From positions 3,898,968 through 3,962,967 of the forward strand of contig OY725497.1 of assembly GCA_963281255.1 (NCBI GenBank): a stretch of 64,000 bases of DNA. The letters are read 5' to 3'. The translations under genes and the position numbers were made by a program. Of this stretch, positions 14,401 to 63,679 are shown piece after piece (positions within the stretch are counted from its first letter, which is position 1; each line of letters opens with the position of its first letter). The notes below the pieces were generated by a model, which did not search any database, was not told where the DNA came from, and was given only the letters and a program-made list of their open reading frames with translations. Source of the DNA: Aphrocallistes beatrix. Taxonomy: Eukaryota > Porifera > Hexactinellida > Sceptrulophora > Aphrocallistidae.

Positions 14401-15567
14401 CCCACCAAGAAGAGTGTCCCCCTCCCCCTAGTCCTCCCCCAGCAGAAGGAGGAGCTCGTCCCCATGAAGGAGCACCAGGTTCCCGCCAAGGCGCGCCCAG
14501 TGGAGCCCTGGAAACGGGATCTCTCGCTTGGAATGGAGGAACCACGCGGCCCCTTCCTCCCCACTCCAGTCACCTCCGCTCCCCAGCAGTACCCAGGGAG
14601 GATCAACCCCCTCGTCGCCATGGAGCAGTCCCGGTTCCCTCTACCATTCGACCTGCCCCCTGTCTCCAACCTATCAGCTGACTGCCCCACCTTCATTCCT
14701 AGCGAGCACGTGCTGATCCAAGCTCAGAGTCTGGCTAGCGACAACTTGATCCTCCCCAACATCCCCACAGGCCCTGCGATGCTCCCACCGGCCCCTGAAA
14801 TGCAGGATGCGATTCACACCTTTGTGATGAACCCTCACCAGCCACAGGTGCACCCTCAGCTGCACGTGCCTCCCCCCCATCCCATGCAGGACATGCTCCC
14901 CGGCCCCCGCCTCCACGTGATGGAGGTCCCCTACCAGCCCCCGCACGAGCAGATCGCCATGCAGGCGCGGAGACGCGAGTCCTACAACCCCGGCAGCGAA
15001 CAGTCGCACTTCATCAAGCCGGAGTCCCTGTGGACGGACGCGTACGGATACAACGAGTTCAATCGGGGCGCCGACAGCGGGGACGACATGCCCACCTACT
15101 TCCTGCCGCAGGGCATCACTAACGACAAGACCATGGATGAGCCTGTTCCCAGGGAGGAGCCGTTCCCTGTGGGGAATAGCACCGGCATGAAGAGGATACC
15201 GGGACCGATCGGTGCCGAAAGAAAGGAGAAAATTCAGATCCATAAGCGCACCTCCTCCCTCCCCAACAACCTCCCCTCCATGCGGCCCGTAGACGGAGTT
15301 CAGGAGGGACAGGGGGACCAGTCGGGGAGCGAATCGGAGACAGGCGAGGAGAGTCAGATGGGCGTGCTTCTGGTCGCGCTCGGACTAGGAGGGTACGCTT
15401 CACTGTTTGAGAAACACGAAATCGACGAGTCGGCGCTCCTCCTGATGACTGATGGAGATTTCGCCGAGATAGGTCTTCCGGAGGACGCGATCTACATACT
15501 GAAAGAGGCAGTGTCTCCTTGCGAGGGAGAGAACACGAGGCGGGCACTCCTCTCCTCAGAAACCTAG
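11473..15567 (+). CDS. ANKHD1: MASK-type ankyrin-repeat, KH and SAM domain protein
   Basis: Intronless 4.1-kb gene, 1364 residues. Order: short Cys-containing N-terminus, about ten ankyrin repeats (about 94-430) that match the second ankyrin block of human ANKHD1/ANKRD17, a Lys/Glu-rich coiled segment (about 460-520), a low-complexity Ser/Pro region, a KH domain (about 648-716, GxxG loop reads GRAG), a long Pro-rich region, and a C-terminal SAM domain (about 1295-1350). MASK proteins are cytoplasmic scaffolds that bind RNA and assist Hippo/Yorkie and JAK-STAT signalling (family knowledge). Human members have about 25 ankyrin repeats; the first block of about 15 is missing here. The SAM domain is not one I know from human MASK. 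Coding GC is far above the surroundings. Confidence 0.9.
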   Translation: MDQFCQCCNTHLLQQELFLSPCSCTTSLPVSNPFTQPRLPSPSPSLTLPPNIPAHDQLASIEDSGLHGIQGPYDAEAIMRDFPTNPDMDRGMDNNETALTIAAAGGHDDLVQLLIERKADIEHKDKKGQTPLLLASYQGHDSTVRILLENGADIEAQSDRTKDTALAVACSAGRLDVVDILVARSANLEHRNLSDYTPLSLAASGGHTAIIRLLLDHGADINSRSGSKLGISPLMLASMNGHVQAVQLLLERGSDVNAQIETNRNTALTLACFQGKHEVVTLLLDRKANLEHRAKTGLTPLMEAATGGHYEVGRLLLDHEADVNAPPVPSSKDTALTIAADKGHARFVDLLVTRGADIEVKNKKGNSPLWLACHGGHLEVIKIMVQSLVDVNSMDNRKVSCLMIAFRRGHLHVTSYLVLQVTQFPCDSDCLKHLNSLLDRPDQRSRCKECFEVIMRAKERQTEEANKHASILLHEIDLEKQQEENRRAQAAKKRAKKKKQKEKKKLSFVSSEEALAEGDRDSESFTESYSEHRDEGTPQHFLESKGVDLRSRSSSSDDPTSPLAEFSSSTPLSERKKSAPSLLLRSDSPAPDKPRRKSKPSSSSSNTSGPPTPTDPAPLLESETDQSLPSPRRPRKEEGWKEVVKKSKKITIQSDAVSRVIGRAGYNINAVREASKAHIELDKNARPGLNATITIRGSADATKLANKYITALVNDAHATIADILPKGSYKKTEATRGPSATTGSPLTSQPTPESQPPNPAPPRSRQGLLPTPKNQGLLPAPGYFSGASYSSSAAKPAPVPPAATGWKQGPLQDVPAGSKPKISPASLPPVKPSLQAVPAIKPGSVPAKATLDSKQRSVPAPLVDRSKETPSQPQTSPDTSKSPSAPFLSPTETQPLQPQWKSKSTPPPSSTSATSDTLCNLPVIPVALGTSLTYPDHTHSSDTQNDRWHLDTDTESDINTDSLQNPITRDISPIGPPTKKSVPLPLVLPQQKEELVPMKEHQVPAKARPVEPWKRDLSLGMEEPRGPFLPTPVTSAPQQYPGRINPLVAMEQSRFPLPFDLPPVSNLSADCPTFIPSEHVLIQAQSLASDNLILPNIPTGPAMLPPAPEMQDAIHTFVMNPHQPQVHPQLHVPPPHPMQDMLPGPRLHVMEVPYQPPHEQIAMQARRRESYNPGSEQSHFIKPESLWTDAYGYNEFNRGADSGDDMPTYFLPQGITNDKTMDEPVPREEPFPVGNSTGMKRIPGPIGAERKEKIQIHKRTSSLPNNLPSMRPVDGVQEGQGDQSGSESETGEESQMGVLLVALGLGGYASLFEKHEIDESALLLMTDGDFAEIGLPEDAIYILKEAVSPCEGENTRRALLSSET

Positions 15568-35971: not shown

Positions 35972-36409
35972 ATGAACCCTGAAAATGCTGAATTAAACTT
36001 GGATATTTCATCCGATCAATTGGACTTGAGGTTCACTTTGTCATTGAGCGATCAGACGATTCATGAGCAAGGGAGAGACCTTCTGACCTCCAAAAGAGTT
36101 GGCGAGACTAATGATTGGTTAGAGAATTTGGATAGAAATAAGCTGGTTTCTTTTTCAATTAAATGTTTGAAAAGGATTATGGTTGATTTGGATTTAAGCG
36201 AAGAAGAAATTCGGTCCATCATGAAGAAGCGAAACATTGAGAATAAGCGCATTAGCACGAGACACAATCGAAGAAGAGTTGCTTTTAAAGAGCTTGAAAA
36301 ACTCAATGAGGTTAGAAAAAGACTTCAAGATGAAAAATTAAATTTGCAAAACGAGATTCAGATGTATCAAAGTCTCGTTCTCAACAAGGGATTATCTACA
36401 ATTTCTTAA
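35972..36409 (+). CDS. CNC/Maf-like bZIP protein 1
   Basis: Single exon, 145 residues. After a variable N-terminus, about residues 48-80 (W..NLDR.KLVSFSIKCLKRIM) resemble the helical CNC or Maf extended homology region. Then comes a basic region about 86-105 (KKRNIENKRISTRHNRRR) and a short leucine zipper with Leu/Tyr every seven residues over about four heptads. Compared with CNC proteins (NKVAAQNCR), the basic region aligns without gap as KRISTRHNR, so the invariant Asn position holds Lys. Two paralogues lie at 42332-41886 (-) and 50181-50591 (+). A nuclear DNA-binding role is inferred; dimer partner unknown. Confidence 0.75.
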   Translation: MNPENAELNLDISSDQLDLRFTLSLSDQTIHEQGRDLLTSKRVGETNDWLENLDRNKLVSFSIKCLKRIMVDLDLSEEEIRSIMKKRNIENKRISTRHNRRRVAFKELEKLNEVRKRLQDEKLNLQNEIQMYQSLVLNKGLSTIS

Positions 36410-37349
36410 TTCGCACTGCGTACGATCTCGAATTTGGGGTTGTAATTTAAGATAATTAGTTTAAGCTGCAGGAAGTAATCAGTGATGCAAAGCAACATTA
36501 ACTCCGTGGATTATCAAAAAAGGAATATTTGCAATTCAGTTCCATTAACTATACACACAAGTATATGATAGTGTGCGCGACTAATTTATTTATGTATTCC
36601 TCTGAACAATAATCATGTCCATGAGCTCGATTATCTCGCCTGCCCTGCGCGCCTATGAATGCCTTGCTTCTGTCATAATCACCCTTCTTTCTTTCTGTAT
36701 CCCTCTATACTTGATTAAACATTGTGAATTTGTGTAATGATGAAAATTTACAGTGCATTTTTTAGTTCACAAATTCAAATATACACCAAAAACAAAAGTT
36801 CTGGTGTGTACTAATCGTAATTTATAGAGCACCACGGACCCATTATAACCGACATCCTGACCGTCTAATATAAAAATGAATTAATAATAAAAGCCCAGGA
36901 CTCCCAAGATTACTGGTTGACACCTGTCTACGGCGAGTACGGCCACATGGAGAAGCTGCTCTTAATCGTATCCTGGAAGTAATATACGGATCTGTCAAAT
37001 TATCAGCAGTGGCGCAATTAAAAGTAAGCCATATACATGGCTACACAATCCTCATATTGTAAGTATAATATTATACTGTAGTTAACTCTCAAGTTTTATA
37101 CGATTTTATTCATGACTCATCCAGCGATCATCGGCGACTAAAGATTCCCTAAGATTACTACATATAATTTTAGTATTTAACCGTAGACTGCCCAGAGGGG
37201 ACACAGTGTCCCCGATATCGCGGATGTCTCCCAGCCATTTTCTATGGCACTGAAGCCATATAAATGCTGGGCATTCTACAGTTAATTAATCCTATATACG
37301 TAATAGAATCCAGAGTGTACATAGATATTTTAGCAAAAAGTGTAAGGAG
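36410..37349. other. Intergenic DNA after bZIP gene 1
   Basis: AT-rich. 37225-37285 (CCCAGCCATTTTCTA..., ACTGAAGCC...) recurs at 56664-56752, so it is a dispersed repeat. No gene recognised. Confidence 0.5.
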
Positions 37350-38059
37350 CAAAATACGGGGACGCTGCATTAGGCCGAATTATGATGTTTCATTAGATCG
37401 AAAATAGCATGTCGTCGATAGATTGAATTTATTTTAACTATGTCGTCGATAGATTGAATTTATTTTAATTAACTATGTTGTCGATAGATCGAAATTCGTT
37501 TTAACTATGTTGTCGATAGATCGAAATTCGTTTTAACTATGTTGTCGATAGATCGAATTTCGTTTTAGCTATGTTGTCGATAGATCGAATTTCGTTTTAG
37601 CTATGTTGTCGATAGATCGAATTTCGTTTTAGCTATGTTGTCGATAGATCGAAATTCGTTTTAACTATGTTGTCGATAGATCGAATTTATTTTAAGGCAA
37701 GATATCTGTAAAAATACAAGGAAACTTTGCACTTTTTGTTTAGATTATTGTGAACCTGAAAGTGAAAGTAGCATTTCTTTCTGAAGGGGGTTCGAGATGC
37801 ATTTCAGATGAGGAATGGCGATAAATGCCTGATCATTTTAGGATTTTTGCCATGGTGATTTGAGTATCAATCTTTCAGCATTGAAGAATGAGATATTTTG
37901 CCACAATCTAGAAATAAATTCGATCTGTCGATATCATAGCTAAAACGAATTTCGATCTATCGACAACATAGCTAAAATAAATTCGATCTATCGACAACAT
38001 GCTAGTTTCGATCTATTGACAACATCAGAATTCGGCCTAATGCATGCGCCCCAAAATAC
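37350..38059. mobile_element. hAT-like foldback element carrying a 32-bp tandem array
   Basis: 694-bp element (37358-38051) flanked by the 8-bp direct repeat CAAAATAC. Ends GGGGACGCTGCATTAGGCCG and its near complement form the terminal inverted repeats. Inside the left half are about nine tandem copies of a 32-bp unit with the core GTTGTCGATAGATCGAATTT (37411-37695). The right half has about four inverted copies (37918-38025). The middle is about 220 bp of unique DNA. No transposase. An 8-bp target duplication points to hAT (family knowledge). Confidence 0.8.
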
Positions 38060-38190
38060 TTATATCCAAATGATTTTGGTCTGGCAGTGGCTGTGGCTTC
38101 ATGATGACACTGAGACATGGTGTCATGAGAACAAGCTTTTATTCACATCTGCAAACAATTAGTAGGGACTGTAGGGCTGTAACAAATATA

Positions 38191-38553
38191 CAGTGAAACC
38201 TGTATATAAAAGGGACTGGATAAAATTGACCGTTATATACAGGTGATTGTCTCAATCCCCAAAAGGTATCAACGTAGTGCAATAAATATCAAGTTTTTAG
38301 CAATCCATTACTTGAAGTAATTACATGAAACTTGTTTATCGTTCGTAACAGGTCCTGTAATAAACACATAAAAAGGTGAAAAAGGTGATGGCCGTTATAG
38401 ACAGTTTTAGGGTCAGTAAAGGACTACAAACGGGTGGCCGCTGGCCGCGTTGAGCAGGTGACCGCTATACAAAGGTTCAATATTATGGAATTTCGGACGG
38501 AACTGTTCATTGGTGACCGCTATATAGAGTGGCCGTTATAGCAGGTTCGACTG
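38191..38553. mobile_element. Pogo/Tigger-like MITE, family 1, full copy
   Basis: 363-bp element flanked by TA on both sides. Ends CAGTGAAACCTG and, on the right as complement, CAGTCGAACCTGCTATAACG. TA target and CAGT...CC ends are typical of pogo/Tigger elements of the Tc1/mariner superfamily (family knowledge). No coding region. A second copy is at 50916-51219 and a short relative at 41304-41438. Confidence 0.75.
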
Positions 38554-40410
38554 TATATGGAATATTCAGATATTTGTTTGAAAAGAAACGAGCGAATAGT
38601 CTCAGACAACTTCAAAATCATTCTAGGGTGAGAAATTATATGTTCCATCGGAAGATTTTCTCCTTCCGAGGCCCAATCCATGGTCCGGCCTTACCTATCC
38701 AGGATTATTAACTTTTGATCGTGTAGAATTGTTTTTATAAAAACCCCACAAAATTTGTCCCCCTAAAATGTTTCGATTTGTCATACTCTGTGAAATCTGT
38801 AAAATTAGCACTTATTTGCTTTCCTGTTTTGATGACAATACACAATGAACAAATCACATAAAATAATTCTATTTACTATGCACACTGTTTACCATTGAAT
38901 ATTCGTAACTTGGTAGATTGTAATTTTTACTCCATTTTCCTACCTGATGAAAATTTATCATTTTAGATAAAAGAATTTTCAAATGAATGTAACTATCCAA
39001 GTGATTTGATAAATCGGTTCAAAAACACAAATATAGCAGTCCTATAATAACCTCCATTTAAAAACCTGATACATCCCAAACCTTTTCTCCGGACGTCTGG
39101 AAATATACAAAAATATTTTCGAAAGCTCAGGATATTAAATCCATTTTAATTTTTTCCATCAAGTGTAGTTAATAAATCTTGAGCTTGTGGCTTGTTTCAA
39201 AACTTAAGTCATCTAGCTAGTCGACTTTGTTAGTGCTATTAGCACGTAAAAATACAGTTTATCTTCCCACGGGTAGAAGTAGTAGTAGATTGGGGCTTTT
39301 CTGATATCGTAAACTTAGGCCTTGCATGCCATCGTATGTATACCATGCATTTTTCTATTTGACCTTCATATAAAAGTGTAGCCCAATGTAAATAGTAAAT
39401 CAAGAAGGGAGTAGTGGAGTTGACTAATCTTATCTTCAATAATGCCTTCATTTATAACAGAAGTTGTGGGATGTCCTACTTCGAGAATTAGAAATGCAGC
39501 AGAGGTATTTGAGAAAATTCCCTGGATGAAGGCTCAATATTTTCTTTTGGTATCTGGACCTATTCTATTGAGAACGGAATCCCTTATTTATATTGATTTT
39601 GAAAAAGCCTTTGATAGGCAACATAGAATACTTTTTAGAAGTAATATTCATGAATCTTCATCGAAAAACAATGAAATTAGTGGCTACTATCTCTTATGGT
39701 TTGGCCAGGAGCGAAATCGCCGAGAAAAAATATTATAACCACTCATTTCAGAAGTTGGCCATTATACTATAGTATAGTCAGCAAACTAAAAAACGATTTC
39801 GAATTTATTAGCTCATTTACCCTTCGCATCACCCCAGTTCCTTACTGGAGCTGCACTAACTGCTGTCGATTGACATTCTAAAATCGAATAAGGATCATTA
39901 CTCTACGATGTACCTACTACTCAAAATTCATTCGTGAATATCGATAAGAAACCTCACGTAGATATAGAAATAAAGGAAACCTATTGTTTAGAATAGTTAA
40001 TTTAATATGATTATAAAACTATACAAATGTTTAATTAACACTAAATAACTTCATAATGCAAAGTGATAATGGAAAACTTTCAACAGATAAATGTTTATTA
40101 TTTATCTTAACACCTATTAATGAATATACATATATGTGGTCAGGTGACGATGACTCATCAAAAATCTAAAATGACGAATTTCCATAATTATGCTTTCCTA
40201 TGTTGCCCAAAAAGGTTTCCTCAAAAATTTCATAATTTTCACACCTCATGTAGGTGTTAAAATGGATTAACTTGGAAACAAGAGGAGATAGAGATTAGGT
40301 TCCTTGATACGAAATGTTTATTAGGCATCACACCTTTCTATATACTAGTTAATATTTTCATGATCAAGTAATAATGACTCATCAATAGTTGCATCATGTA
40401 TAAAAAATAA
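38554..40410. other. Intergenic DNA with possible retroelement remnant
   Basis: AT-rich. The frame at 39580-39640 reads IYIDFEKAFDRQHR, like motif A of LINE reverse transcriptases, but no other domain is preserved. 39847-39880 resembles the repeat end at 17959. 40145-40400 shares motifs with 29340-29480. No intact gene. Confidence 0.45.
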
Positions 40411-40603
40411 CCCCAGTTTGCCTCCGCCTTTAACATGCAGTCGCCATCCAGACCCACAAATGCATCACGATACCAAGTGAGTATAGTCTGGCATAAATAT
40501 TGCCCAAATAAGTCCCATTGGGCTCTATACTCACTTGGTATCGTGGCGCATTTGTGGGATGTCTGGATGGCGACTGCATGTTAAAGGTGGAGGCAAACTG
40601 GGG
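40411..40603. repeat. Foldback repeat with about 76-bp arms
   Basis: The arms 40411-40486 and 40528-40603 are near-perfect inverse copies. Outer end CCCCAGTTTGCCTCCGCCTT, inner end near ACTCACTTGGTATCG. The loop is about 40 bases. Likely a small transposon; no clear target duplication seen. Confidence 0.7.
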
Positions 40604-41885
40604 CATCTTTTAAATACGTATTGGAATAAGTTATTATAAAAAAATTGGACTCCACAACCTTACACAAATGATTGGATTGATTATTTTGGACTAATATAAA
40701 AATTATACATATATTTGGGGGTTGAGAATTCCAATTAAACGAAAAAACAGTAACCACCTGCGACTTTTTAACTTAAAAAGATCAACCTATATTTGCAAAG
40801 TTATATCTGTGAAATTCCAATTTAATTCTTTCATTCAGGTGCTATACGTGTAGTTATTAGTATAATGAGTATATTCCCCATCTCAGTCTAAAACAGAGCT
40901 AAGTTGTCCATCCAAAATATGTTGGAAGAGAGTGGAAAACGCTTAAATTAATTCCAGATAAGTCCAATAGAAACTGGCAATAATTGATGAGTCATTGATT
41001 ATATGAAACGTGATATGATCTAAATAAAGCTAGGCTAGATTATTAAACAACTTGTAAAACTGTACTAGTTAAGACTGAATAAGATTTGGTTCAACTAGAC
41101 AAAACATAGACAAAACGTTCATATTTGTAGAGGTCAATTTGTAGGTCACTCTACATGTCACCTGGTGAATTTCTAAGGCTTAAATATTTCCACCTTGACT
41201 AGGAATCTTGTTTAAGATATGTCCTTAAAAATTGATAAATAAATTTGTCACCTTGGATAGTATCAATAGTTCTATTGCTAATATTTAACTCATTAACATA
41301 TTACAGCGGAACCAGCGGTCACCTGTACATAACGGCCACTTAAACAGTCCCGTTGTCGACTTTCCCATTACAATTAACCTATAAATAACGGCCATTTATG
41401 GCCAGTCCCTTGGGTGGCCGTTAAGACAGGTTTCATTGTATGCAATTTCTCTCTGTTCATCTGAACAAACTGAAAATTAGCGAGAGTTCAATTAAATACG
41501 GATATCGTTTTCAGTAAAACTACTTATTCGTGATTTTAATTCTTTTGTCTGGAGTTTTCAGGTCTATTGAAAATACTACTTGTATTTAACAGTTCGCGAA
41601 TACAAATCGGGATGGGATCTGTGGAGTGTATATTCTGTGACGACCAGTGAAACAATAAATCTAAAATAGTAACAGCGAAAAACACAGCTTGTTTAATTAA
41701 ATTCGCAGAGCGAGAAATGAGGGAATTAGCATCTGTTACGCATGTAAGCAGACGTAATACAAAAAGCATGAAAAGTTACAAGCAGCTTGAATAATGATAA
41801 TAAAATCATGCTTATATCCCTCTTCTTTCCGATCACGCACGAGGTCAGCAGTAGCTAGTTGTCAGCAGCGAAGTCAACTATCTCG
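40604..41885. other. Intergenic DNA with a short MITE
   Basis: Mostly AT-rich unique DNA. 41304-41438 is a 135-bp element flanked by TA with ends CAGCGGAACC and CAATGAAACC, related to the family at 38191. No gene recognised; the open frame at 41536-41769 shows no family. Confidence 0.5.
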
Positions 41886-42332
41886 TTAATTTGGGACTTT
41901 TGATTGGTAAAAGCCAATTTCTTGGAGCAGTCGTTCTTTCTCAAATTCTAGTTGGGATTTCTTATTTTCCAATTTAGAGACCTCGAATTGCGCCAGTCTT
42001 CTACGGTGAAGGAATGTACTGATCCGTTTGTTTTCAACTTTGCGTATTTTCTCGATGTAGCTGGCCTCGTCACCCTTTATATTCAGGATGCAAAGAATCC
42101 TCTTGAAACAAGCGAATGGAAAGAGAACTATTTTCTCTCTGTCCAAATAATTAAGCCAATCCTCGTCAACCTGGGTCCCCTCCTTCATCAGAAGAGCTTT
42201 TCCAAAATGAACAATAAGATTGTCGGATAGCTCGATAGAAAATCGGCCATCCGAAATGTCCTCATATTTTTCGTTGTATTCGTGCGGACTTTGGGGTAGG
42301 GAGGATTGTGCCATTACTATATTATATTCCAT
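41886..42332 (-). CDS. CNC/Maf-like bZIP protein 2
   Basis: Single exon, 148 residues from the ATG at 42332. The longer open frame upstream has no ATG and overlaps a TATAAATA box at 42378-42371, so this start is preferred. The layout is the same as the paralogues: W..YLDR.KIVLFPFACFKRIL helical region (about 60-85), basic region KVENKRISTFLHRRR, and a short zipper (LENKKSQLEFEKERLLQEI). The Asn position again holds Lys and the Ala-Ala pair is Ser-Thr. Identity to copies 1 and 3 is high over this part and low in the N-terminus. Confidence 0.75.
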   Translation of the reverse strand: MEYNIVMAQSSLPQSPHEYNEKYEDISDGRFSIELSDNLIVHFGKALLMKEGTQVDEDWLNYLDREKIVLFPFACFKRILCILNIKGDEASYIEKIRKVENKRISTFLHRRRLAQFEVSKLENKKSQLEFEKERLLQEIGFYQSKVPN

Positions 42333-44488
42333 TTTGTTAACTTTTTCTATAGATTTTTCACATCTGAATTTATTTATATGATTATATAAGCTGCTACTGG
42401 GAACTACGCAGAGCACATATACTGTTAATGTTGATTCAGGTTTAATCGATTCATAAGCATTTAATACTGTCTTTATGAGAATTAGTAAGAAAAGGTAATA
42501 CAGTGCGGGCTAGGAACCGCTAACTATGGACAGTTTTTTTTACATACGTCCTCATATGTAAATAAGAATACAAAGTATTGTTTTTTGAGAATCTTAGAGT
42601 CACCAAATTTCTAATTGTACACTGTATATAATCACAAAGTACATAGAATATCGCTTATACAGTAACTCCCACCGATTATTATATATTTTTCTCTTGGCTT
42701 AGGGCCACTGTTGAGTGTCTAATCCGGCCCTGACACAAGTCACTATCAGATTTAGAGTTGAAATATTCTATTCAACCATTATTTTTTTCGATTCTATTTC
42801 CTATTACTGTCTTTCATTCGAGATATTATTGTAGCAAATATTGCACCCATGAACACATTAGGCGACACAGGAGGAGACAAAATATCATTTGTGGCCTGCC
42901 TCTAAACAAGTGCCATTCAAAACTTATTTGCACTTCAGATAGAATAACGGAGCCGTGTATTGTCAGAAGTTAAAAAACTATCTGATTTGTTGGTACACAA
43001 AGAAATACGAAATATCCCATGTATCGCATTGTGTCGCCTCGTGTGTGCACAAGGAACAAATGTATTTTAGTACAGATCATAGAAATATCATAGAAAGAGA
43101 TGTATAATGGTATGGATGGTGTGTCATATCCGTTCGTACGTACGTAGCGCGATCCTGCGAAATATAAGTCTGATTTGTTCCTTTGCATGAACAAAACTCG
43201 AGCTGCTAATAAGCGAATTTAACTGTATATAAGTTATTTGTCAATCCATAGCCTACTCTAATAATGTCTCACAGTAGACTGAAAATTATGGACTAGGGAT
43301 GAAGTAGTAGCCGAATGGATTAACCCATTCACATTTCAGTTCTATGCGAAAAGTTTTATAATACAAACACTTAGAAGTGCCCTTAAACGACCTCAAATCA
43401 CCAAAAAATCACCAATTTGTCACAAATATACCCTATTGCGCAACCATATGGTGACTAATCTAAATTTTAACAACGGATATGGGTACCTTGACACCATATT
43501 TATATATGCTGGTAATACTTTATTAAGCTGTATTGTGCTTTGTTAATGATTTAAGGCAGCTCATGTATTAGTTCAACCATCTTCTAACGCATCCTTGGTC
43601 AAGTTACTCTGAGGCCTTATTATAGTAGGCTATGGATTACCGTAATACCACATGTCGTTATTTCCCGAAATTGATATGTAGTGTTTATGTTAACATATTC
43701 GGACTAGTGGACAAGCCAAGAAAACAAAAGTTCGGTGCATGTCCTCGAGCGGCACAAAACCTTAGATACGGGCAAATTTTCTGTTTTCAAGTTTTCTACG
43801 TATAGTACGTGAGTTACTGTAAAGTTGATCTAAATAGTAATACTGTACCGTAATAATATTTTACAGCTAGTGTGTTATATAATATGTCTCTACTAAAAGT
43901 GCATTCACAGTAATATGAGGAGGGCATTAAAATAATTTTCAATGATGCGTCAAACCAGAACAATCTTAAGGCATTTGAAGTAAACACAGACCTGAGTGGA
44001 CTACAATTCAAGTGAGGTTCCAAACAGCCCATCGATTTAGAATAGATAGTCTCCATTCGTTCTAAGGATATCCATGATGAATTAATTTTGCTGCCACTAC
44101 AGTACTTGTGTTACTCAGGGATTTAAGCTTATATTATACTATGTGTACATGTGTGCTTGCTTGTTTTACTCGTAAATTATATTAAATGCTTCTGCAAAAA
44201 TAAAAATTAATCGTACTCTTAGTTCAGCTCCTAAAAGGAGAATTGCCCTTATGGCATGGGCGGTGTACTATGTCGGTCTGCCCGTCCATCCAAAATTGCA
44301 AAAAATCACAAAATATGTACTTAGTCTTTTTTACTCTGAATAAATATTCCTAAAAGTTTGACCTATATCGGTGAACACAAAACAACAAATAAAGAAATAA
44401 GAATTTCAATTAACTTTACCGTGTACAAGATCTCAACCAATAGATTGATACTTATCCTTACTATTAAAACTCGATTAATGCATACATA
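42333..44488. other. Intergenic DNA after bZIP gene 2
   Basis: Holds the TATA box of bZIP 2 near 42375. A repeat-like end CGAGCTGCTAATAAGCGAA near 43198 resembles the foldback at 29709. Otherwise AT-rich with no gene recognised. Confidence 0.4.
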
Positions 44489-44939
44489 CAGGTATCGCCG
44501 TTCGCGGGGGTTACGTTCCTGAGAATTGTCGCGAATGGCAAAATCGCGAACGGCAAGACGTTAGTTCAATGAGAATAGTGGGGTTACGTTCCTAGATCAT
44601 AAAAACGACGCTAGATACAGTTTTCTAAATACGTTATTGATTCAATAGTTGAGCTGTAATACTGATACAAACACTGGCACAAGTGAAATGGTAGCAATAA
44701 ATGAAGTGATAAATGAAAGATATAGATTCCCTAGTAGCAAACCTAAGTACCTGTAAGTACAATAATATGTAGATACGTATAAGGTTATGGACTTATGGTA
44801 GCCCATGAAACTACTGAAGAGAGTAACGAAAACCGCGAATAGTCGGGGGAAAGAGTCGCGAATAGCAAAACGAGACTCAAATTTTCCGCAAATAGTCGAA
44901 ACCCCGAATGGCAAACTCGCGAACGGCGAGGGCTGCCTG
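44489..44939. mobile_element. Pogo/Tigger-like MITE, family 2
   Basis: 451-bp element flanked by TA. Ends CAGGTATCGCCGTTCGCG and, as complement, CAGGCAGCCCTCGCCGTTCG. Subterminal GCGAATGGCAAA and GCGAACGGCA motifs repeat near both ends. No transposase. Right next to it, 44951-45020 has another similar end (CAGTCGACTCCGCTTAATAG). Confidence 0.75.
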
Positions 44940-45829
44940 TAGATATATACAGTCGACTCCGCTTAATAGGGTCACATCGGTCAGAGGATATTTTGCCCCG
45001 ATTAAACAGAGTCGACATATATATATAGTAATGATGACGTAATAAACGATGACAACTCATTTTGGTTTTACGTATAACAGTATCATCATGTGGATCATGT
45101 TTTTATACACCTGTGATTCAAATTTCAAGCTTAACAAGTACAATGGCAGAATTAAGGCTAAACACTGGAATTTCTAATCACGGCCAAACACAAAGGACTG
45201 TAACTAATTCACGGCTATAAATAATCAGTCTAGTCTTTATCAGAATCAATTTGATTTTATCATGGTTGTTATAACGAATGGATTTCATAACAAATTCATG
45301 GCTATACTATACCAAAAATCCACTTCTCAATCACTCCTTATATCGCATCTACTACTATAGAATACACAATACATAATTGATCCCACTCCAACTAAGAACA
45401 TCAGTGTATGTAGATACAAAAGAGTTCACTTACCATTAATGTGCTTCAATCCATCTTGATGTTGTTGATAAAAAAAGTAATGCACAGCTCCCATAAAAGC
45501 ATTTTCTTCTGAAGTAGAGAATCGTCGTGAAAAAAAAGTAATATATGAACTTGACCGTTGCAAGCTGGCTATTAAAGAGAAAAGTACAATCACTTATGTG
45601 TAAAGTAGTTCAATATATGAGCACAATTTCAATACAAAACCATAATATTAAGAGCCAATAGTCGATGTCAGTAACGGCACCCTACCCAAAGCCCAAAATT
45701 AAACCACACAAATAAAACAATTGAAGAGAAATATTGCGTATAATGGTTAATATTCAATAGTAAAGAATTAGAAAATAAAAATTATAAAATGATTAGAGTT
45801 AATATTCAAAAGAAAACTGAAAATAAATT
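44940..45829. other. Intergenic DNA with an orphan exon candidate
   Basis: 45434-45508 on the minus strand is bounded by CTACTTCAG and GTAAGTG. One frame is open and reads AFMGAVHYFFYQQHQDGLKH in part. I do not recognise the protein and found no neighbouring exons. 45025-45080 shares ATGATGACGT motifs with 29340. The rest is AT-rich. Confidence 0.3.
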
Positions 45830-46204
45830 CTATTTTGCTTTAGCAAGAATTTCAGCTACTATTTCCCCGCCTCTCCCAACCTCATAAGGTTTTACATCAG
45901 TGAATTCGATCACAATCCTGTCAAGTGAAATGTTGAGCTTTTCAGAGACAAACTTGTTGATATCCGCACAGTACTTGGACATTTTTTTCGCGTCATTCCT
46001 GAACCTATCGACACTTATGACATTTATCTGAGCCATTGGAGCTTCACTGCCACCAAAAATCGTGACAGAGTCAGGAATTACACAGATCGATATTTTATCC
46101 GCTGGCTTGTCAAGAGAAGCCGCGAGGACCTGGACGAACTCTTTCAAGAATTCTGTTTGGAATGAAATTCTAGAAAGGTTAGTGTATATGCGACACAACG
46201 GCAT
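45830..46204 (-). CDS. MIF: Macrophage migration inhibitory factor homologue
   Basis: Single exon, 124 residues. Begins Met-Pro; after Met removal Pro1 is the catalytic base of the MIF tautomerase. Family blocks include KPADKISICVIPDS, FGGSEAPMA, and ISLDRIVIEF (human: ISPDRVYINY). The invariant Lys at about position 33 of the fold is present in KPADK. MIF proteins are trimeric cytokines and tautomerases. The C-terminal end has about nine extra residues over human MIF (115). D-dopachrome tautomerase is the main alternative name. Confidence 0.92.
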   Translation of the reverse strand: MPLCRIYTNLSRISFQTEFLKEFVQVLAASLDKPADKISICVIPDSVTIFGGSEAPMAQINVISVDRFRNDAKKMSKYCADINKFVSEKLNISLDRIVIEFTDVKPYEVGRGGEIVAEILAKAK

Positions 46205-46797
46205 TCTAGTGATGTATATAAATAAAGGCTAAAATAAAATCATTGGTTAAAAGTAAAAAAATCCGCTCACAGATGGGATGGGAGTGTGCTTCCAACTTAG
46301 AACTGGATGAGACACAATAAGGAATATTGCATCATCATCCAAAGCATGTGGATTGTACTATGATATTGGATAATACGTAGAACTAAGTTGACTAATTCAT
46401 GAATTATCAATGAATTACTCAAAATTTGAAACTAAAATAATGAAAAAAAAATTGATATTTCGCTTAGGGACTGAGCAATGTTAGAGGTATATAACATGAG
46501 CAACCTTTTAACCACTTTTGGGCATAGAATCTGCACTAATGTTTGAGATTTTGAATAATTCATTAATTGAATAATTCATAATTCTTCATCACCTTTCAAT
46601 GAATTAGTCAACTTAGACGTAGAATAGTATAGGAACCGCACAAAAATGAAATGAAAGAGATAGCTAAGAATTTAATTACTCAATTTCTCCCAATTTTTTA
46701 CAAGATGATGTTTCTGAAAATAATGAGATACTACTACGTGCACATTTTTATCAATACATGTGGAACAATATAACACAAACCTCCAAATTAAATATCC
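46205..46797. other. Spacer between MIF and zinc-finger gene
   Basis: AT-rich. A loose inverted motif around GACTAATTCATGAATTATC (46390) and its complement-like GAATTAGTC (46600) is present. No gene. Confidence 0.35.
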
Positions 46798-47835
46798 TTA
46801 GTTCGTTTCCTGAGACTCATGCTGTCTATGTTTAAAGTTGTGCTTAGTTAGAGTCTGCTTTCTTTTAAATTTAGAAGGACAAATGGTACAATTGAATGGT
46901 CTCTCATCAGTATGCGTTAACATGTGAGTAGATAGATTTGTCCGTTGAACAAACCCTTTAGGACATTGTGTACAAGAATAAGGTTTTTCTCCAGTGTGAA
47001 CACGTCGGTGTACAGTTAAGCTCATCTTACTAGAAAACTTCTTTGGACATAAATCACATTGAAAAGGTTGGTCTCCTGTGTGAATACGCTGATGCTGTGT
47101 GAGGTGCGTTCTTCTAGCAAACTTCTTAGAGCAAGTATCACACGAATGAGGTTTTTCTCCAGTATGTATCCTTAGGTGCACCTGTTGGCTGGATTTACTA
47201 CTAAATTTAACGGTACAAAATTGACACGAGTACGGTCTCTCCCCTGTATGAGACCGTACGTGCAACTCCAGAAGGTTTCTCTTGGGAAACTTCTTCGGGC
47301 ATTTCTCACAAGTGAACATATGCTCCCCGGTATGTAACCGCGTATGCACTGTTAGACTAGATTTATAGATGAATACTCGGGGACAAAAATCGCATGGGTG
47401 GGAAGAATTAGGAGAAAATTTCGATTTTGTTCTCTCTTCTCGAATTGCTTGAATTGGGGTTTTGTTTATCAGCTGATCATCCTCATCCAGTATTTCTACT
47501 TTGATATCAATCTCCTCAAGACAAATAGTTGCATTCTCACTTAGTCTCCATTGAGGAGAATCTTTCTGACATTCTTCATCACCAGTATCCTCGTAATCAC
47601 TGGTTTTCAATATTAACCAATCGGAGCAGTTAACAGAGTATCGAGGACTGCCATCGGAAGTTCCATCAGGTTGCTCTTCAGTTATCGAACTCTGTGGGCC
47701 TACTTCTAGCTGAAGATATTCTTTTTTTCTTCCTTCAATATTTTCATCATTTTTATATCTCCACTCTCTCTTATCGTCTGGTTGGCTCGCTTGGATTCTA
47801 CTTGAACTTTTTCCATGAACTGTATATTTATACAT
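46798..47835 (-). CDS. C2H2 zinc-finger protein, seven fingers
   Basis: 345 residues. The N-terminal 145 residues are acidic and not recognised. Seven tandem C2H2 fingers of 28 residues follow (about 147-340), joined by TGEKP-type linkers (TGEHM, TGERP, TGEKP, TGDQP, TGEKP, TDERP). Such arrays bind DNA in the nucleus. No KRAB, ZAD or BTB domain is seen. The frame stays open for a short distance upstream of the ATG, so a further 5' exon cannot be excluded. Target unknown. Confidence 0.88.
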   Translation of the reverse strand: MYKYTVHGKSSSRIQASQPDDKREWRYKNDENIEGRKKEYLQLEVGPQSSITEEQPDGTSDGSPRYSVNCSDWLILKTSDYEDTGDEECQKDSPQWRLSENATICLEEIDIKVEILDEDDQLINKTPIQAIREERTKSKFSPNSSHPCDFCPRVFIYKSSLTVHTRLHTGEHMFTCEKCPKKFPKRNLLELHVRSHTGERPYSCQFCTVKFSSKSSQQVHLRIHTGEKPHSCDTCSKKFARRTHLTQHQRIHTGDQPFQCDLCPKKFSSKMSLTVHRRVHTGEKPYSCTQCPKGFVQRTNLSTHMLTHTDERPFNCTICPSKFKRKQTLTKHNFKHRQHESQETN

Positions 47836-48709
47836 TCTTGAGTAATATTCTCCTCTATGATTAATCTTAAGTTAAAAGTTACAATATATGAAGCATAACA
47901 AAGATTGATATGAACCAGTAATAATAGTGGATTATCCGACACATCAAATTTGACTATGCTCTATTTGCTCTATAGGGCTACTCAGAACGTGGCCCACAAA
48001 GCCTTAATTAAATATGCCCCTCAAGCTTCACCTTTTCTACTAAACTATTGTATTTTTCCATGCACTTAATAATTAAGGTAGACTAGCCAATCGGAAATTA
48101 TCTGGTCCGCGGCCACGTAGCAATCAAAGTTGAGTACCCTGCACTATACTATAGAAACTATTGTAATTGTAGTTTGGTATGCGTATGAACAATGGGTTTT
48201 GGTGGTAATCAATCGAAAAAGTGTAAGAAACATCAATTACATGTGAAAGTTAGTAGTTCGGTAGGTTATTTGCATAACTTCACATGGCTAGACTATAATA
48301 CCTAAATAATTAATGCAGCTGAGCTTGAAGAAACAGGATAGGATACACATCATTTGTTAACATTTTAGTATTTATTCTTGGTAAAGTATACAAGTACAAT
48401 AGAACACGGATAAGACTTACCCCTCCGGGAAGCGAAAAAAGTACGTACTAACCGAGTTGATATTACATAGGAATCTATATATTAAATGAATTTTGGTTCA
48501 TAGATATGAGTACGTACTAACCGAGTTTTACTGTTATTGTATTTGTATTCTAGAAAGTGCGGTCTCTTCATTAGAGAAAAAATCATTTTGAAGATTTACA
48601 TTTTCAAATGAGTAAATTTTTTTGCTTATATGCGTACGAACTAAATTACAGACGAAATATTTTATCATGAGTTTTAGATAAATATTCGGATGAAACTAAT
48701 GGTATCAAG
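47836..48709. other. Spacer upstream of zinc-finger gene
   Basis: AT-rich. The 18-bp GTACGTACTAACCGAGTT occurs at 48441-48458 and again at 48510-48527. May be the ends of a decayed element. No gene. Confidence 0.45.
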
Positions 48710-49054
48710 TTATTTCTCACTCGTTAAGAATGCTTGTTTTCCACTAGATTCGACAGCATCTGATTCGAGGCCTCCAGCTCTATCTGCTACATCACCTAGG
48801 AACAGCTCACCCCTGTCGTTCAATCTACTAATACCGTATGGATTCGCGTAATTCCGAATGATGACATGTTTCACTTCAACCAGCTCAGATATGGATCTGA
48901 GCTTACCACAGATTTCTTCCGAATTCTTGAATAGGTAAACCTGTCCCCTCTTCAATCCGAGATGTTTTATTGTGGTTTTCATCCAGTAGGGCCTTCTGAT
49001 TCCAGAGTATCGGAGGGTGACTGCTAATAGCTTAGTAGCAGTCGTACCTGACAT
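48710..49054 (-). CDS. MRPL30: Mitochondrial ribosomal protein uL30m
   Basis: Single exon, 114 residues. The uL30 core is residues about 7-62 with LAVTLRYSGIRRPYW, HLGLKRGQVYLFKN and a VKHV end, which match the family motif of L30. The RRPYW...LGL pattern marks the mitochondrial form. It sits in the large subunit of the mitoribosome. A cleavable presequence is not obvious in the first residues. Human MRPL30 is longer (161). Confidence 0.85.
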   Translation of the reverse strand: MSGTTATKLLAVTLRYSGIRRPYWMKTTIKHLGLKRGQVYLFKNSEEICGKLRSISELVEVKHVIIRNYANPYGISRLNDRGELFLGDVADRAGGLESDAVESSGKQAFLTSEK

Positions 49055-50147
49055 TATTATTCTGACTAATATGATACAAAATTACAACAAAAATTAAGAA
49101 AATTGAAAATTTTTAAAGCTGCTAACTCATTCCCAATTATTTTAGGCGGAAAAGCCATAAAATTCGGGGTATTATAAATAGAATGTACCCCAATGCTAAG
49201 TAGTTAACCACTAACCTAGTTTTTACTTTATTAAACAAACAACATTTTTAAAGGTTATTGTATTTATTATAGAAATATTATACATACGTATATGTACTAG
49301 ATTTTGAGATTTCACAGGAGCCTTCCTGGAATAAATGGATTATTTAACAAAAAACCCACAACTCATGGCCATGGTTTGAGAATTAATCTTTAGTCCATGT
49401 ATGGTATTTTGTTTTGTATTTAGATATATTCTCAATAAACTAAAAATTTATACGTAACAAGTAGATTCAGGGGATTATCTAGGAGCGAGAGACGCTCCTT
49501 TAGGCTATGATTTTAAGCCTCAAAGTGTTTAGGAGCGTAAAAATCCAGAATAATACCCAATTTACCCTATTTTATAATGTAATTTATAGATTTAGGCGTA
49601 TGAAAATTTTGGGATTTTTTAGATTATGAACGTATCTCTGGAGGGCTGTATAATACCCTGAGTAGATTGAATTTAATTCCATAGAGATACATTCAATGGA
49701 ATGTACTGACGGACATAAGTGGTTGTTCACAGTGTAAATAACAAATCTATATATAGACTAGTCGGTATATTTAGTCCATATTTAATTGTCCCGTTTACAA
49801 TAGGTCTAGTCTAGCGTACATATATAACCCGAAGTGAAAAAAAATTTGTGTAAGTATATACACTATACTGAGCGAAATCACTTTATAAATTTTTGGTAGA
49901 TAAATCATCGTAGACAAAATAATTTCATTCGATCAAGTGAATTCGATAAATTACCAATGATTGGCTACTTACTGTCAAATTTTTGATCTAGACACATGGC
50001 TTGACATGTCGCTATATGTACCTATGTCCGAGTTTATTAATCGTAGGTAGTAAAAAAAAAACAATTATTCCTACCGAAAGACAGCATCAGCTTGTCGAGT
50101 TCGATGTAATTAGATCTAATTGTGTGGACCAATACGCATAGTATTCC
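49055..50147. other. Spacer between MRPL30 and bZIP gene 3
   Basis: AT-rich, about 1.1 kb. No gene or clear repeat recognised. Confidence 0.4.
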
Positions 50148-50155
50148 TATAAATA
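50148..50155 (+). promoter_or_regulatory. TATA box of bZIP gene 3
   Basis: Exact TATAAATA, 25 bases before the start codon region at 50181. The short distance implies a very short leader. Confidence 0.45.
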
Positions 50156-50180
50156 AAGCGAAAATGTAATTAGTACTAAA

Positions 50181-50591
50181 ATGGAAGCAATTAAAGATAC
50201 TGCTAAGTTATTTTGTCCACAACCTGACGAGAGATTTGGCACTTATTGTTCTGATAATACAATCATAAATAAGGGAGTTTCATTACTTGTCAATACTGGA
50301 TCGAATGTTCAATCAGAAAATTGGGTAGAACATCTGGACAGGAAAAAAATTGTGTCTTATTCGTACCCTTGTTTCAAACGTATTCTCTCATTGCTGAGAA
50401 TCAGTGATAATCAATGCTCCGAAATCATGCATATGAGGCGAAGAGAGAACAAACGAGTGAGTACCTCCAAGTTCAGAAGCAAGAAGAAGACCCGGGAATA
50501 CCACCAGTTATGTGTGAAAAAAACCCAACTGCAACGTGAAAAGGAAAAGCTGGTTAAAGAGATCAACTTTTACCGCAGCTTCAGTATGTGA
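50181..50591 (+). CDS. CNC/Maf-like bZIP protein 3
   Basis: Single exon, 136 residues. NWVEHLDRKKIV helical block (about 50-75), basic region MRRRENKRVSTSKFRSKKK, zipper with LQREKEKLVKEINFY. This copy shows the CNC likeness best: the Arg triplet before the core (RRRE) aligns with RRRGK of NFE2-type proteins, and the core KRVSTSKFR aligns with NKVAAQNCR. Asn is replaced by Lys with an Asn one position earlier, and Cys by Phe. Length is far below NFE2 or Nrf proteins, with no transactivation region recognised. Confidence 0.75.
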   Translation: MEAIKDTAKLFCPQPDERFGTYCSDNTIINKGVSLLVNTGSNVQSENWVEHLDRKKIVSYSYPCFKRILSLLRISDNQCSEIMHMRRRENKRVSTSKFRSKKKTREYHQLCVKKTQLQREKEKLVKEINFYRSFSM

Positions 50592-52254: not shown

Positions 52255-52968
52255 CTATACCGGATGCGCGATTACATATCTCGGCTTACATATTAGTATG
52301 TAGGAAATTATGAAACCAAATGTCTCCATACAAGTGACCAATACCGCGACCACCATAGATAAAATCGAGATCCATCTGAAATTGGTTTCAAGATGATGGG
52401 CACAACCTGTCGTAAATATGTTCTCAATGTCATATGTGTCACATTCTGGTTGAATACAACAGCTGGAGGGGATAGTTTGCCCAATTAATGCCCAATCTCT
52501 GTACGAATATGTGCCACAGCATTTAAGTCCGCTCTGAATTGAGTTGAACACTCGTAGCACATCTTCTTCCGGTTCTTTCATGTAGAGACGCATGGAATCG
52601 GAGATCTTAGATGAAATTTCATCGTGAAGAGCGAGGAAAATAGCTGCTCCAGCTAAATGAGTGACAACACTGATAATTAGGATTATGTTGAAAGTTGTGA
52701 GTAGACAGCGATTGTAAAGAATTGAACTGAAAAATCCGATAACACTTGCTGTGAGTAGAATAAGAACTGTGAGAGCGATGAGTCCAGGGCTGATTATGTA
52801 GATAATTTGGAAGTAGGTCCCTGACCCGAGGAATGTTAGGAAATCCTTGAAAGCAATCAGGTAGTAGGCTATTGGAGCGATGACAGCCCCAGCCAACACC
52901 CAGAGCCATCCACAAAACAGTAACAACAGAACCCGCACTAATAACCCGTCCTTGATTTTGGTTTCCAT
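52255..52968 (-). CDS. Tetraspanin
   Basis: Single exon, 237 residues. Four membrane segments at about 11-36, 55-80, 87-113 and 201-227. The large extracellular loop lies between the third and fourth and has the signature CCG (KCCGTY) plus SCC and further cysteines for two or more disulfides. Tetraspanins organise membrane microdomains with integrins and other partners. I cannot place it in a vertebrate subfamily. Confidence 0.9.
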   Translation of the reverse strand: METKIKDGLLVRVLLLLFCGWLWVLAGAVIAPIAYYLIAFKDFLTFLGSGTYFQIIYIISPGLIALTVLILLTASVIGFFSSILYNRCLLTTFNIILIISVVTHLAGAAIFLALHDEISSKISDSMRLYMKEPEEDVLRVFNSIQSGLKCCGTYSYRDWALIGQTIPSSCCIQPECDTYDIENIFTTGCAHHLETNFRWISILSMVVAVLVTCMETFGFIISYILICKPRYVIAHPV

Positions 52969-54505
52969 GATTTCGAATCCGTTTAGAGTTTAATAAATAG
53001 TATTTTCAAAATATGATCTTTTTATACAAAGCCCGTAGAATGGTATTGGAATTTGCATCGTTGATTTCAGCACAGAAAGGCTTCGAAATAATCATTTCAG
53101 AGCATTGATTTAATTTCTTAACCTTACATGACCTGAGACTAAACCTTAGAAGTAACAACTATCTCAACTCTGATATAATGATTCACCCACAACATAGTAT
53201 TGTACTGCTTCATACCATTATCCCTGCAGTAGATCGACCGTCTCTTAAAAACATACAAATGCGAAGAGATTATTGAAAAGAATATATTTAAAGATTATGT
53301 AAAAAGAAGCAGATATCTTCTCTCAGGTGCAGCGGGTATTGGATATACATACAATATATTGACATTATGTGCCCTTAGAGATATCCCATAAAGTTTATTC
53401 ATAGGCGCAAATTTTTAAAAAGGGGGCGTAACCAGTGAAAATATGCTATTTTGCCTTAAAATTAGGCAACAATCATGCAAGGGGGTAGCGGTGAACTCAG
53501 ATAAGGTGTCTGTATCAGACGGCCCTCTTGTTACAGGTTCTATCTAATTTGGCTATGTTCAATATTACAGTAATTCTTTTACAATTTTTTCAACCAAATT
53601 AGACTCCGCTATATTCTATTATAATAGTATTGATTACCAATAAAAATAAGTTGAAAACCGCTGCCCTGTGGCTGGACGGTCTATAGACTCTACATCAGAA
53701 CGGGCAGCACTGCCAAGTCTTTTTCATCAAATTCGGTTTGTAGGCAATAATTCACTCTAGCACAAATATAAAGGATACAAGCAAATGAGTGCCCTTTGGG
53801 AAGGCTCCGATTATTAAAGGGAGGCTAATATTCTAGTAAATAAGGTTGGAAATAGTCCATAAATAATCTTAGAAAATAATGTCAGTATCATTCTAATCAA
53901 ATGTTTATAAATTATTGCTCCTCTCCTTTTCTAATTAGCAATTAAATACAGTATAATTAACGGTCGAGTCAAACATGATGTAGATTGAAACTCATGGCTG
54001 AAGAAGCAGATTTGAACATTCCAAATATAGTGTCGTGGCTGATCTCATTACTTTGTTCAGTCGCAGGAGCTATGCTGCAATTTCGAAAATTTGACAGTAA
54101 AGACAATTTCGTATAAACCAGCTTCGTAGGAAACTGAGTAATGATTACATTGGACATTTCTCAGATATAATTGACTAATGGTGTAATCCATCAATGTCCG
54201 TTTTATTTTTAGTTTAACCTTGAAATTCGAGAATCACCAATACAGCGACAATCATAGAAAAAAGACCGATAGACATAGCGTATGTACTATCATGCATATT
54301 GAGTACTTTAACCTGCGACATAGGTAATCAATGTACTACAACTGTTTTTATGTATACATAGGCAATCTCTTTTTTATTTGTCTGAACCACCACATCATCT
54401 GTTTTTTGATAATATATCTAATTAAATCAAACCTCACCGAAAAGATTCGAAAGCAAACTGAGTAATCCAGGCATTTTAAGTGACCGCTGTCGTCATCAAA
54501 CAAAG
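52969..54505. other. Intergenic DNA with a possible mini-gene
   Basis: AT-rich. 53995-54117 (+) has a 40-codon frame from ATG to TAA that starts MAEEADLNIPNIVSWLISLL and has one hydrophobic segment; no family recognised. 54205-54300 (-) has a 27-codon hydrophobic frame. Both could be chance. Confidence 0.3.
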
Positions 54506-62557: not shown

Positions 62558-63679
62558 CTAAGTGTTCTGATCTAGATCAGAAATTCCATCTGATTCAAGT
62601 GGACCTTGCGTTTCATTTGCAGAATTTTCGTCTTGAGTTAGACTAGCTGGATTTGTTTGGTATTTAGAAGCTTGACTTGGTGTTGCGGGATCTTCTTTTC
62701 CAACTGCTGCTGGTATGATAGAACTTTGTTCTGAATTTTCCTGAGAAAAGCAGACATCTTCCATCGATTTTTTTCCAGATTCTGGTTGGCTAACCTCAGA
62801 AATAATATCTTCTTTCTCACTGTGCTGGTGCGCTCTGCTCTGTACTTTTTGCTTCAATCGTGGTGGAAATACCAACAACCTATCTAGAGTAGTGGTGACT
62901 TCTGGACATTGTGTAACAGGGTTCTCTTCACTCCCAGCAATTTCATAAATCTTAATTTTAACTTCGTATGTGAATCTTGTCATAAAGGACTGAAAATCCA
63001 TGTTTCTTCCATATTCCTTGAATGCTTGGCAGAATTCCTGGATTGCGAATGATCCAGATTCAGTACCTCGAAGAGAAGCGATACTCCATCCACAAAAGTT
63101 AACTGTAATGAAGTCGGACCAGCATGAAGCTACCCTCAGCTTAGGGTCTAAGTTAGGCTCTCCATCCGAATCAAGACCGTCTGTTTCTATTTGTTCTTGG
63201 AACATGGGATATGCAATCTCCTTTCTTTCTTTACCATCCTTTAGAGTCCTGCAACAGTTAAATAAAAACATCTTCGGTTTGCCAATTAGGAATTTGCAAC
63301 TCTTACCACTGAAGAATGTCTTTATCATGGAAAATGGGAAGATCTTCATATCGGAGGTACAGATGCCTTGCTCCGTTCCATGAGAAGAGATAGCCATAAC
63401 AAAAGTCTGATCTTTCTCCTCAATCTGTGGCACCTTAGACTTAAGAGTCCTCTTGCCAGATAATAAGCTCATAAGTTGGAACATGTCTTTCCATTTCAGG
63501 TCTTGGTAAACATGAACATCTAAAGAAAACTCTTCCTCCAGTAATTTTTTCAGAGATTCCACTTCTTTTTCTGCCCCCTTTCTTGTATACTTTTCGTCAG
63601 TGAACTTTTCGTTGACAATTACAATACCAATCCCACATTTGCCTTGACTGTTATCCAATTGATATCTATATCTCTCCAT
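62558..63679 (-). CDS. Caspase-like cysteine protease with divergent active site
   Basis: Single exon, 373 residues. The caspase fold spans about 12-270. Catalytic His100 is in SSHG; catalytic Cys143 lies in NCCRT, where caspases have QACRG or a close variant. The small-subunit block SLRGTESGSFAIQEF resembles SWRNxxxGSWFIQ. No CARD or DED prodomain. About 100 Ser/Glu/Gln-rich residues follow the protease, which is unusual since most caspases end soon after the small subunit. Aspartates in the linker (DGLDSDGEPNLD, about 169-180) may be processing sites. The substrate is unknown, and altered catalysis is possible. Confidence 0.82.
   Translation of the reverse strand: MERYRYQLDNSQGKCGIGIVIVNEKFTDEKYTRKGAEKEVESLKKLLEEEFSLDVHVYQDLKWKDMFQLMSLLSGKRTLKSKVPQIEEKDQTFVMAISSHGTEQGICTSDMKIFPFSMIKTFFSGKSCKFLIGKPKMFLFNCCRTLKDGKERKEIAYPMFQEQIETDGLDSDGEPNLDPKLRVASCWSDFITVNFCGWSIASLRGTESGSFAIQEFCQAFKEYGRNMDFQSFMTRFTYEVKIKIYEIAGSEENPVTQCPEVTTTLDRLLVFPPRLKQKVQSRAHQHSEKEDIISEVSQPESGKKSMEDVCFSQENSEQSSIIPAAVGKEDPATPSQASKYQTNPASLTQDENSANETQGPLESDGISDLDQNT

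Follow-up and report, generated by a model that had tools for sequence, protein, structure and literature searches.

Three short CNC/Maf-type genes in one window

We analyzed a window of 64,000 nucleotides of the Aphrocallistes beatrix genome (contig C11, positions 3898968 to 3962967) that carries three short genes, w1, w2, and w3, whose products (the trio) are homologous to the CNC and Maf lines of basic leucine zipper (bZIP) regulators (Table 1). An initial annotation had described three open reading frames (ORFs) here with a common helical block, basic region, and zipper, and all three were recovered at the same positions. Judged from the open frames, which extend 11, 59, and 8 codons upstream of the first methionine in w1, w2, and w3, respectively, the genes look single exon. 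P0002 and P0003 are 41% and 38% identical to P0001, with 41 invariant columns across the trio that include the motif ENKR.ST and, in P0001 numbering, D54, R55, K57, E90, N91, K92, R93, S95, T96, R100, L111, L118, L125, and Y132. Searching the genome with P0002 (tblastn) returned the other two members at E values of 1.1e-23 and 4.3e-20, so their kinship is beyond chance. Inspected by eye, the proteins have little sequence beyond the DNA-binding and zipper parts and no evident activation part.

Table 1. Positions in the window of the three bZIP-like genes and of their parts
Feature	Positions	Strand	Remarks
w1 (P0001, 145 residues)	35972..36409	+	Intact single-ORF bZIP-like gene
w1 CNC/EHR-like helical block and N-terminal basic residues	36116..36238	+	Gapless HMM alignment
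w1 basic core ENKRIST	36239..36259	+	Lys codon 36245-36247 in Asn column
w1 leucine zipper	36302..36367	+	L-L-L-Y at heptad spacing
w2 (P0002, 148 residues)	41886..42332	-	Intact single-ORF bZIP-like gene
w2 CNC/EHR-like helical block and N-terminal basic residues	42036..42158	-	HMM alignment
w2 basic core ENKRIST	42015..42035	-	Lys codon 42027-42029 in Asn column
w2 leucine zipper	41907..41972	-	L-L-L-Y
w3 (P0003, 136 residues)	50181..50591	+	Intact single-ORF bZIP-like gene
w3 CNC/EHR-like helical block and N-terminal basic residues	50322..50444	+	HMM alignment, AlphaFold2 model
w3 basic core ENKRVST	50445..50465	+	Lys codon 50451-50453 in Asn column
w3 leucine zipper	50508..50573	+	L-L-L-Y; model predicts a single unbroken helix over residues 76-135

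The proposed derivation from CNC/Maf proteins stood up. Profile matches were obtained to Nrf2 (E = 2.1e-14), BACH1, and Skn-1, and the trio was recognized by a hidden Markov model (HMM) built without it from 28 CNC-type relatives of the same genome that keep the Asn, the Arg, and a spacer of 17 residues between basic region and zipper (best-domain scores of 37.5 bits for w3, 30.3 for w2, and 28.2 for w1, while 90 shuffled trio sequences reached a whole-sequence score of at most 9.9 bits). As in the CNC family (Nrf2/NFE2L2, BACH1, NF-E2, and Caenorhabditis elegans Skn-1), a helical block, possibly the CNC motif, lies directly before the basic region, and the arginines at positions 502 and 515 (Nrf2 numbering throughout) are kept. 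Unlike in that family, the zipper is one residue off phase and Lys, Ser, and Thr stand for Asn507, Ala510, and Ala511; Nrf2 is also far longer than the 136 to 148 residues found here. Small Maf proteins (MafG and MafK) are comparable in size and, like the trio, consist of an EHR-like block and a bZIP domain with little else. The AlphaFold2 model of w3 has predicted short helices in its helical block (residues 48 to 51, 54 to 59, and 62 to 71), and its best structural matches were MafA, MafG, and MafB entries, with Maf chains leading. Unlike small Mafs, the trio misses the Pfam bZIP_Maf cut-off and has Lys and Ser in the columns of MafG Asn61, which bonds a flanking base in the published Nrf2-MafG structure, and of Tyr64, which lies close by (PMC9756947).

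The Pfam search suggested by the initial annotation gave only a partial signal: P0003 fell below both cut-offs (bZIP_Maf, E = 0.0028, 18.6 bits, cut-off of 22; bZIP_1, 14.1 bits, cut-off of 27.6), and P0001 and P0002 matched no Pfam bZIP model. Pfam alone was dropped as a test of the Asn column, being too weak for it. A sequence search of the PDB with P0001 gave four matches (best E = 0.11), none of them a bZIP protein.

A lysine in the asparagine column

The 28-row HMM aligned the trio with no gap from the helical block through the basic region; Lys fell on the Asn column, Ser and Thr took the places of the two Ala residues, and the Arg columns coincided. The same register was returned by HMMs of all 41 rows that keep the Asn and of the 64 rows with a spacer of 10, so the Lys that had been noted at the place of the invariant Asn is there in all three proteins. 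An HMM of four large Mafs scored the trio at 6.4 bits or less, too weak to inform on the register. The core had been given as KRxSTxxxR; it is corrected here to ENKR[IV]ST, in which both Ala positions are replaced too. The bZIP signature N-x7-R is thus absent from the trio, with Lys for Asn and the Arg retained. In the published Nrf2-MafG structure, the residues concerned, Asn507, Ala510, and Ala511, read TGA (PMC9756947); all three trio proteins have Lys, Ser, and Thr there and retain Arg502 and Arg515.

The alternative is a register error, with the Asn that lies one residue earlier as the real contact residue and a one-residue indel elsewhere. It finds some backing in the sister locus L004, which aligned with a one-residue deletion in two of the three HMMs, leaving the Asn column empty (28-row HMM) or filled with L004's own Asn (the other HMM); the spacer-10 HMM put L004 in the Lys register. 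Three HMMs align the trio gaplessly with Lys in the column, however, and the Asn register would bring Asn, His, or Phe to the Arg515 column and give a zipper spacer of 12. The trio does have an indel, but downstream of the basic region (6 residues fewer than in spacer-17 models and 1 more than in the spacer-10 model). We therefore regard a register error as very improbable. An alignment to Maf made by eye, which kept the Asn in its column, was discarded in view of the HMM results.

The altered core is constrained

The stretch ENKR[IV]ST is 90% identical in the trio and L004, compared with 39% for the helical block, 41% for the zipper, and 17 to 25% for the linker and the flanking basic halves, and it is the top 7-column window of that alignment (permutation P = 0.0115). 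All seven core codons differ between w1 and w2, giving 7 synonymous and 0 amino acid changes. Pooled over the six pairs, the raw ratio of nonsynonymous to synonymous differences per site was 0.56 outside the core and 0.05 within it; synonymous sites are saturated, and the core contains few of them. As read from these alignments, the altered basic core is held by selection in the trio, which speaks against decay and against a protein that blocks by dimerization alone, and in favor of contact with DNA or with another partner, as in a changed reading head.

A loss of the Asn in decaying duplicates that are no longer needed would agree with the fast divergence of the trio (38 to 41% identity) and with family matches elsewhere in the genome that cross a stop (e.g., C6:1602466). 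All three frames are open, however, the w1/w2 core differs by synonymous changes only, and the ratio of nonsynonymous to synonymous substitution rates (dN/dS) is below 1 in nearly all similar family pairs, so that we regard decay as very improbable. The dN/dS survey covered 44 scorable pairs among the first 116 loci; the ratio was defined in 38 and below 1 in 36 of these (counted by hand, in pairs that lack independence because members recur among them). The two pairs above 1 were L100/L102 (1.39, six changes) and L005/L007 (1.42). Because of this ratio, recently duplicated members appear to be mostly retained as proteins.

A large family with variable contact residues

The genome searched comprises 100.5 Mb in 28 contigs. 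A bZIP_Maf search gave 109 matches at an E value of ≤1, of which 93 were above the Pfam cut-off (hand count), 5 of these belonging by eye to other bZIP lines. Together with protein searches, at least 139 Maf/CNC-like places were found on 18 contigs, and 91 have a further such place less than 30 kb away; all place counts are lower bounds. The alignment has 138 rows, since one L008 gene (C8:3890576, with Lys in the Asn column) stands outside it. Six matches were excluded by eye beforehand as other bZIP lines (C1:2972713, C1:6360349, C12:1318582, C18:1963692, C16:531467, and C8:89936), three weak ones were left out of the family rows (C13:231935 and C13:238522, both with stops, and C13:235301), and bZIP_1 matches at L116 and L118 to L121, together with four weak ones (C1:4364717, C9:911603, C4:454968, and C17:3814911), were not used. 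L012 and L144 were counted as Asn though their basic regions are gapped.

In a tree of 113 rows, the trio grouped with L004, L005 to L007, and L009 at an SH-aLRT support of 82. These nearest relatives lie on other contigs (L004, L005 to L007 on C8, and L009 on C12), so the trio is not the local family that it had been called. Resolution of the tree is low (15 of 110 inner branches starred), and the minimum number of changes that it requires is 8 for Asn versus not Asn and 35 for residue identity, as raw counts without a shuffled control.

The Asn is absent from 97 of the 138 aligned loci, where 12 other residues replace it (N 41, M 24, S 21, K 18, R 9, V 7, I 4, A 4, C 3, L 2, Q 2, G 2, and T 1). 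Positions 507, 510, and 511 form 59 kinds of triplet among the 136 gap-free loci, the commonest being NAA (18); KST is confined to the trio and L004. Arg502 is retained in 129 and Arg515 in 106 of the 138 loci. Entropy is 0.44 bits at position 502, 2.96, 2.37, and 3.21 bits at 507, 510, and 511, and 3.1 to 3.7 bits at 500, 501, 505, 509, and 512 to 514. The probable backbone grip is thus mostly retained, while variation at the base-reading positions almost equals that of their neighbors, a pattern that fits diversified specificity and also relaxed constraint. Among near relatives (34 pairs with 40 to 50% identity outside the basic region), residues agree at 84% of base-contact positions and 46% of other basic positions; in the most distant pairs (<20% identity) the values are 16% and 18%. 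Near relatives without Asn rows (40 to 85% identity) give 83% and 63%.

Measured from Arg515 to the reference zipper Leu, the spacing is 10 residues in 64 of the 138 loci and 17 in 59, one heptad apart, so in most members the basic region stays in phase with the zipper, a requirement for bZIP proteins. Other spacings are 13 (eight loci) and 6, 14, 22, or 23 (four loci). In the trio, the basic region is followed by leucine heptads after a spacer of 11 in place of 10+7n.

L017 to L020 (C18:38730-54220) are four consecutive large Maf genes that keep the Asn, and the N-terminal parts of three are nearly identical by eye. L108 and L109 (C8:2867248-2885308) hold four nearly identical bZIP-like copies, three identical and one with a single difference, that have Pro at the second Ala position and a spacer of 13; they form a recent tandem array whose basic helix may be broken.

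Proposed function of the trio

We judge it slightly better than even that the trio are short CNC/Maf-derived bZIP-type regulators that read an altered half-site, pair within the family, and modulate transcription. The CNC/Maf line of this animal would have given rise to three short nuclear proteins in which the CNC-like helical block keeps the start of the basic helix poised for DNA and the retained Arg502 and Arg515 grip the phosphate backbone. With the TGA-reading residues of Nrf2 swapped for the fixed set Lys-Ser-Thr, they would most likely recognize a different half-site. The four-heptad zipper would pair them, probably with fellow members of the large family. Because almost no sequence exists beyond the DNA-binding and zipper parts, we infer modulators or repressors that would retarget or displace their partners, like small Mafs, and not activators.

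Several results weigh against this reading. The chief point against simple dimer binding is the one-residue phase shift, since a spacer of 11 is unique to the trio among the 138 loci. A skip residue may take up the shift; alternatively, the CNC block and basic region may together form a half-site reader like Skn-1. The deletion that two HMMs place in L004 also counts against it. Moreover, a specificity-residue test that was positive with all rows was not significant without Asn rows and with one pair per clade (8 clades; P = 0.29).

The initial annotation had offered changed DNA specificity and blocking of other bZIP proteins side by side. As a blocker, the trio would pair through the zipper with CNC/Maf members, grip DNA poorly, and take its partners off DNA, as Id does for basic helix-loop-helix proteins. 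The replacement of all three TGA-reading residues, the small size without an evident activation part (by eye), and above all the spacer of 11, out of phase and found in the trio only, mean that this reading keeps some weight. An exact basic core would be useless to a blocker, however, and yet ENKRxST is the most constrained stretch; Arg502 and Arg515 are also retained in all three. We therefore hold blocking to be unlikely and favor changed specificity, because the core is the best-conserved part of the trio and L004.

The phase would be irrelevant if the trio were half-site readers of the Skn-1 type, with a preformed CNC block and basic region and a loosely coupled zipper. Skn-1 was matched by profile, the core ENKRxST coexists with spacers of 11 (trio) and 13 (L004), and the Nrf2 CNC block is described as preforming the N-terminal basic helix (PMC9756947). 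Against this, the four zipper heptad positions are kept and the zipper is 41% identical in the trio and L004, suggesting that it is used, and the predicted helix of the w3 model is unbroken; we rate this alternative as quite unlikely.

Changed specificity of the trio could be one case among many. In this broader scheme, which is possible but doubtful, one CNC/Maf switch would have yielded more than 100 mini-bZIPs with a mostly fixed grip and varied readers, whose dimers read many sites, the trio having the Lys-Ser-Thr specificity. If so, the bZIP repertoire would be a counterpart of zinc-finger repertoires.

Precedents for loss of the asparagine

The Asn counts as a hallmark of bZIP factors; across 896 bZIPs from 49 eukaryotes, one survey lists only three kinds of exception at the Asn or Arg (PMC4736632). 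Its loss has precedents in Giardia, where Gly takes its place, and in oomycetes, with Cys among the replacements (PMC4736632; PMC4046829). A likeness is seen in the novel oomycete classes (C-R, R-R, and V-R), which arose by duplication-driven expansion with the invariant Asn replaced and the Arg kept; Phytophthora sojae is described as having 71 candidates, 30 of the Asn class and 20 with Cys, with transcripts for most of them (PMC4046829). This is a likeness in kind, set against the published description; oomycetes belong to another kingdom, and the present family has 138 aligned loci and 12 replacement residues. A new DNA site, with binding not lost, is reported for Zta(N182S), an engineered form of a viral bZIP in which this Asn is changed (PMC13228511); the substitute there is Ser and not Lys, and the protein belongs to a different bZIP line.

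Published figures are 446 bZIPs of every type across 20 holozoan genomes (PMC4736632), and two CNC-like proteins in the sponge Amphimedon, with 15 other bZIPs given in one place for a sponge (PMC6213907). Since these numbers are far lower, the suggestion of a lineage-specific group holds in part; it was too narrow, as the trio lies within a family of at least 139 places. No such expansion in a sponge, another animal, or the CNC/Maf line came up among the best-ranked open-licence papers, in searches in which Lys at the Asn was not a query by itself. "bZIP" is absent from the main text of the Oopsacas genome paper, and the Aphrocallistes paper mentions it twice (one up-regulated gene and one method line). 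Loss of the Asn has precedents, and an animal CNC/Maf expansion lacking it appears new against the papers searched. If the family members without the Asn bind DNA, they would amount to a set of natural mutants for working out how bZIP proteins recognize their sites. Searches that require the Asn or the Pfam cut-off can miss members, because two of the three window genes match no bZIP model.

Other features of the window and genome

ORFs for MIF (45830-46228), a C2H2 zinc-finger protein (46798-47871), ribosomal L30 (48710-49081), and a tetraspanin (52255-52989), all on the minus strand, lie among or beside the bZIP genes. Two tyrosine-kinase ORFs in opposite orientation (3339-5318, plus strand; 8428-10602, minus strand) have differing N-terminal parts and, by eye, hydrophobic stretches resembling a signal and a membrane span; this looks like recent gene conversion, because a 710-base piece of the kinase domain is 100% identical. 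An ankyrin-KH gene, presumably ANKHD1/ANKRD17-like (11458-15567, plus strand), is GC-rich from about 12 kb onward, and an incomplete copy that lacks the KH part (6788-8251, plus strand; 1,319 bases at 99.0% and 131 at 98.5% identity) lies between the two kinase genes. At 62558-63679 (minus strand), a caspase-domain protein with a long tail is encoded (Pfam Peptidase_C14, E = 2.5e-31).

Outside the window, contig C28 (17,996 bases) is mitochondrial DNA, with COX1 matches containing 11 in-frame TGA codons. Its AGR codons in COX1 presumably fall at positions that are Ser in other animals; glass sponges read AGR as Ser. The start of the contig (L122, C28:1-1500) has by eye an inverted repeat, as if the molecule were linear with hairpin ends, and we take the open frame near it to be atp9. 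Mitochondrial atp9 is described as a feature separating sponges from other animals (PMC11572364). Taken alone, this contig points to a sponge, perhaps a glass sponge. Finally, L123 (C27:1-1500) contains an open frame of 374 residues resembling, by eye, a Tc1/mariner-type transposase.

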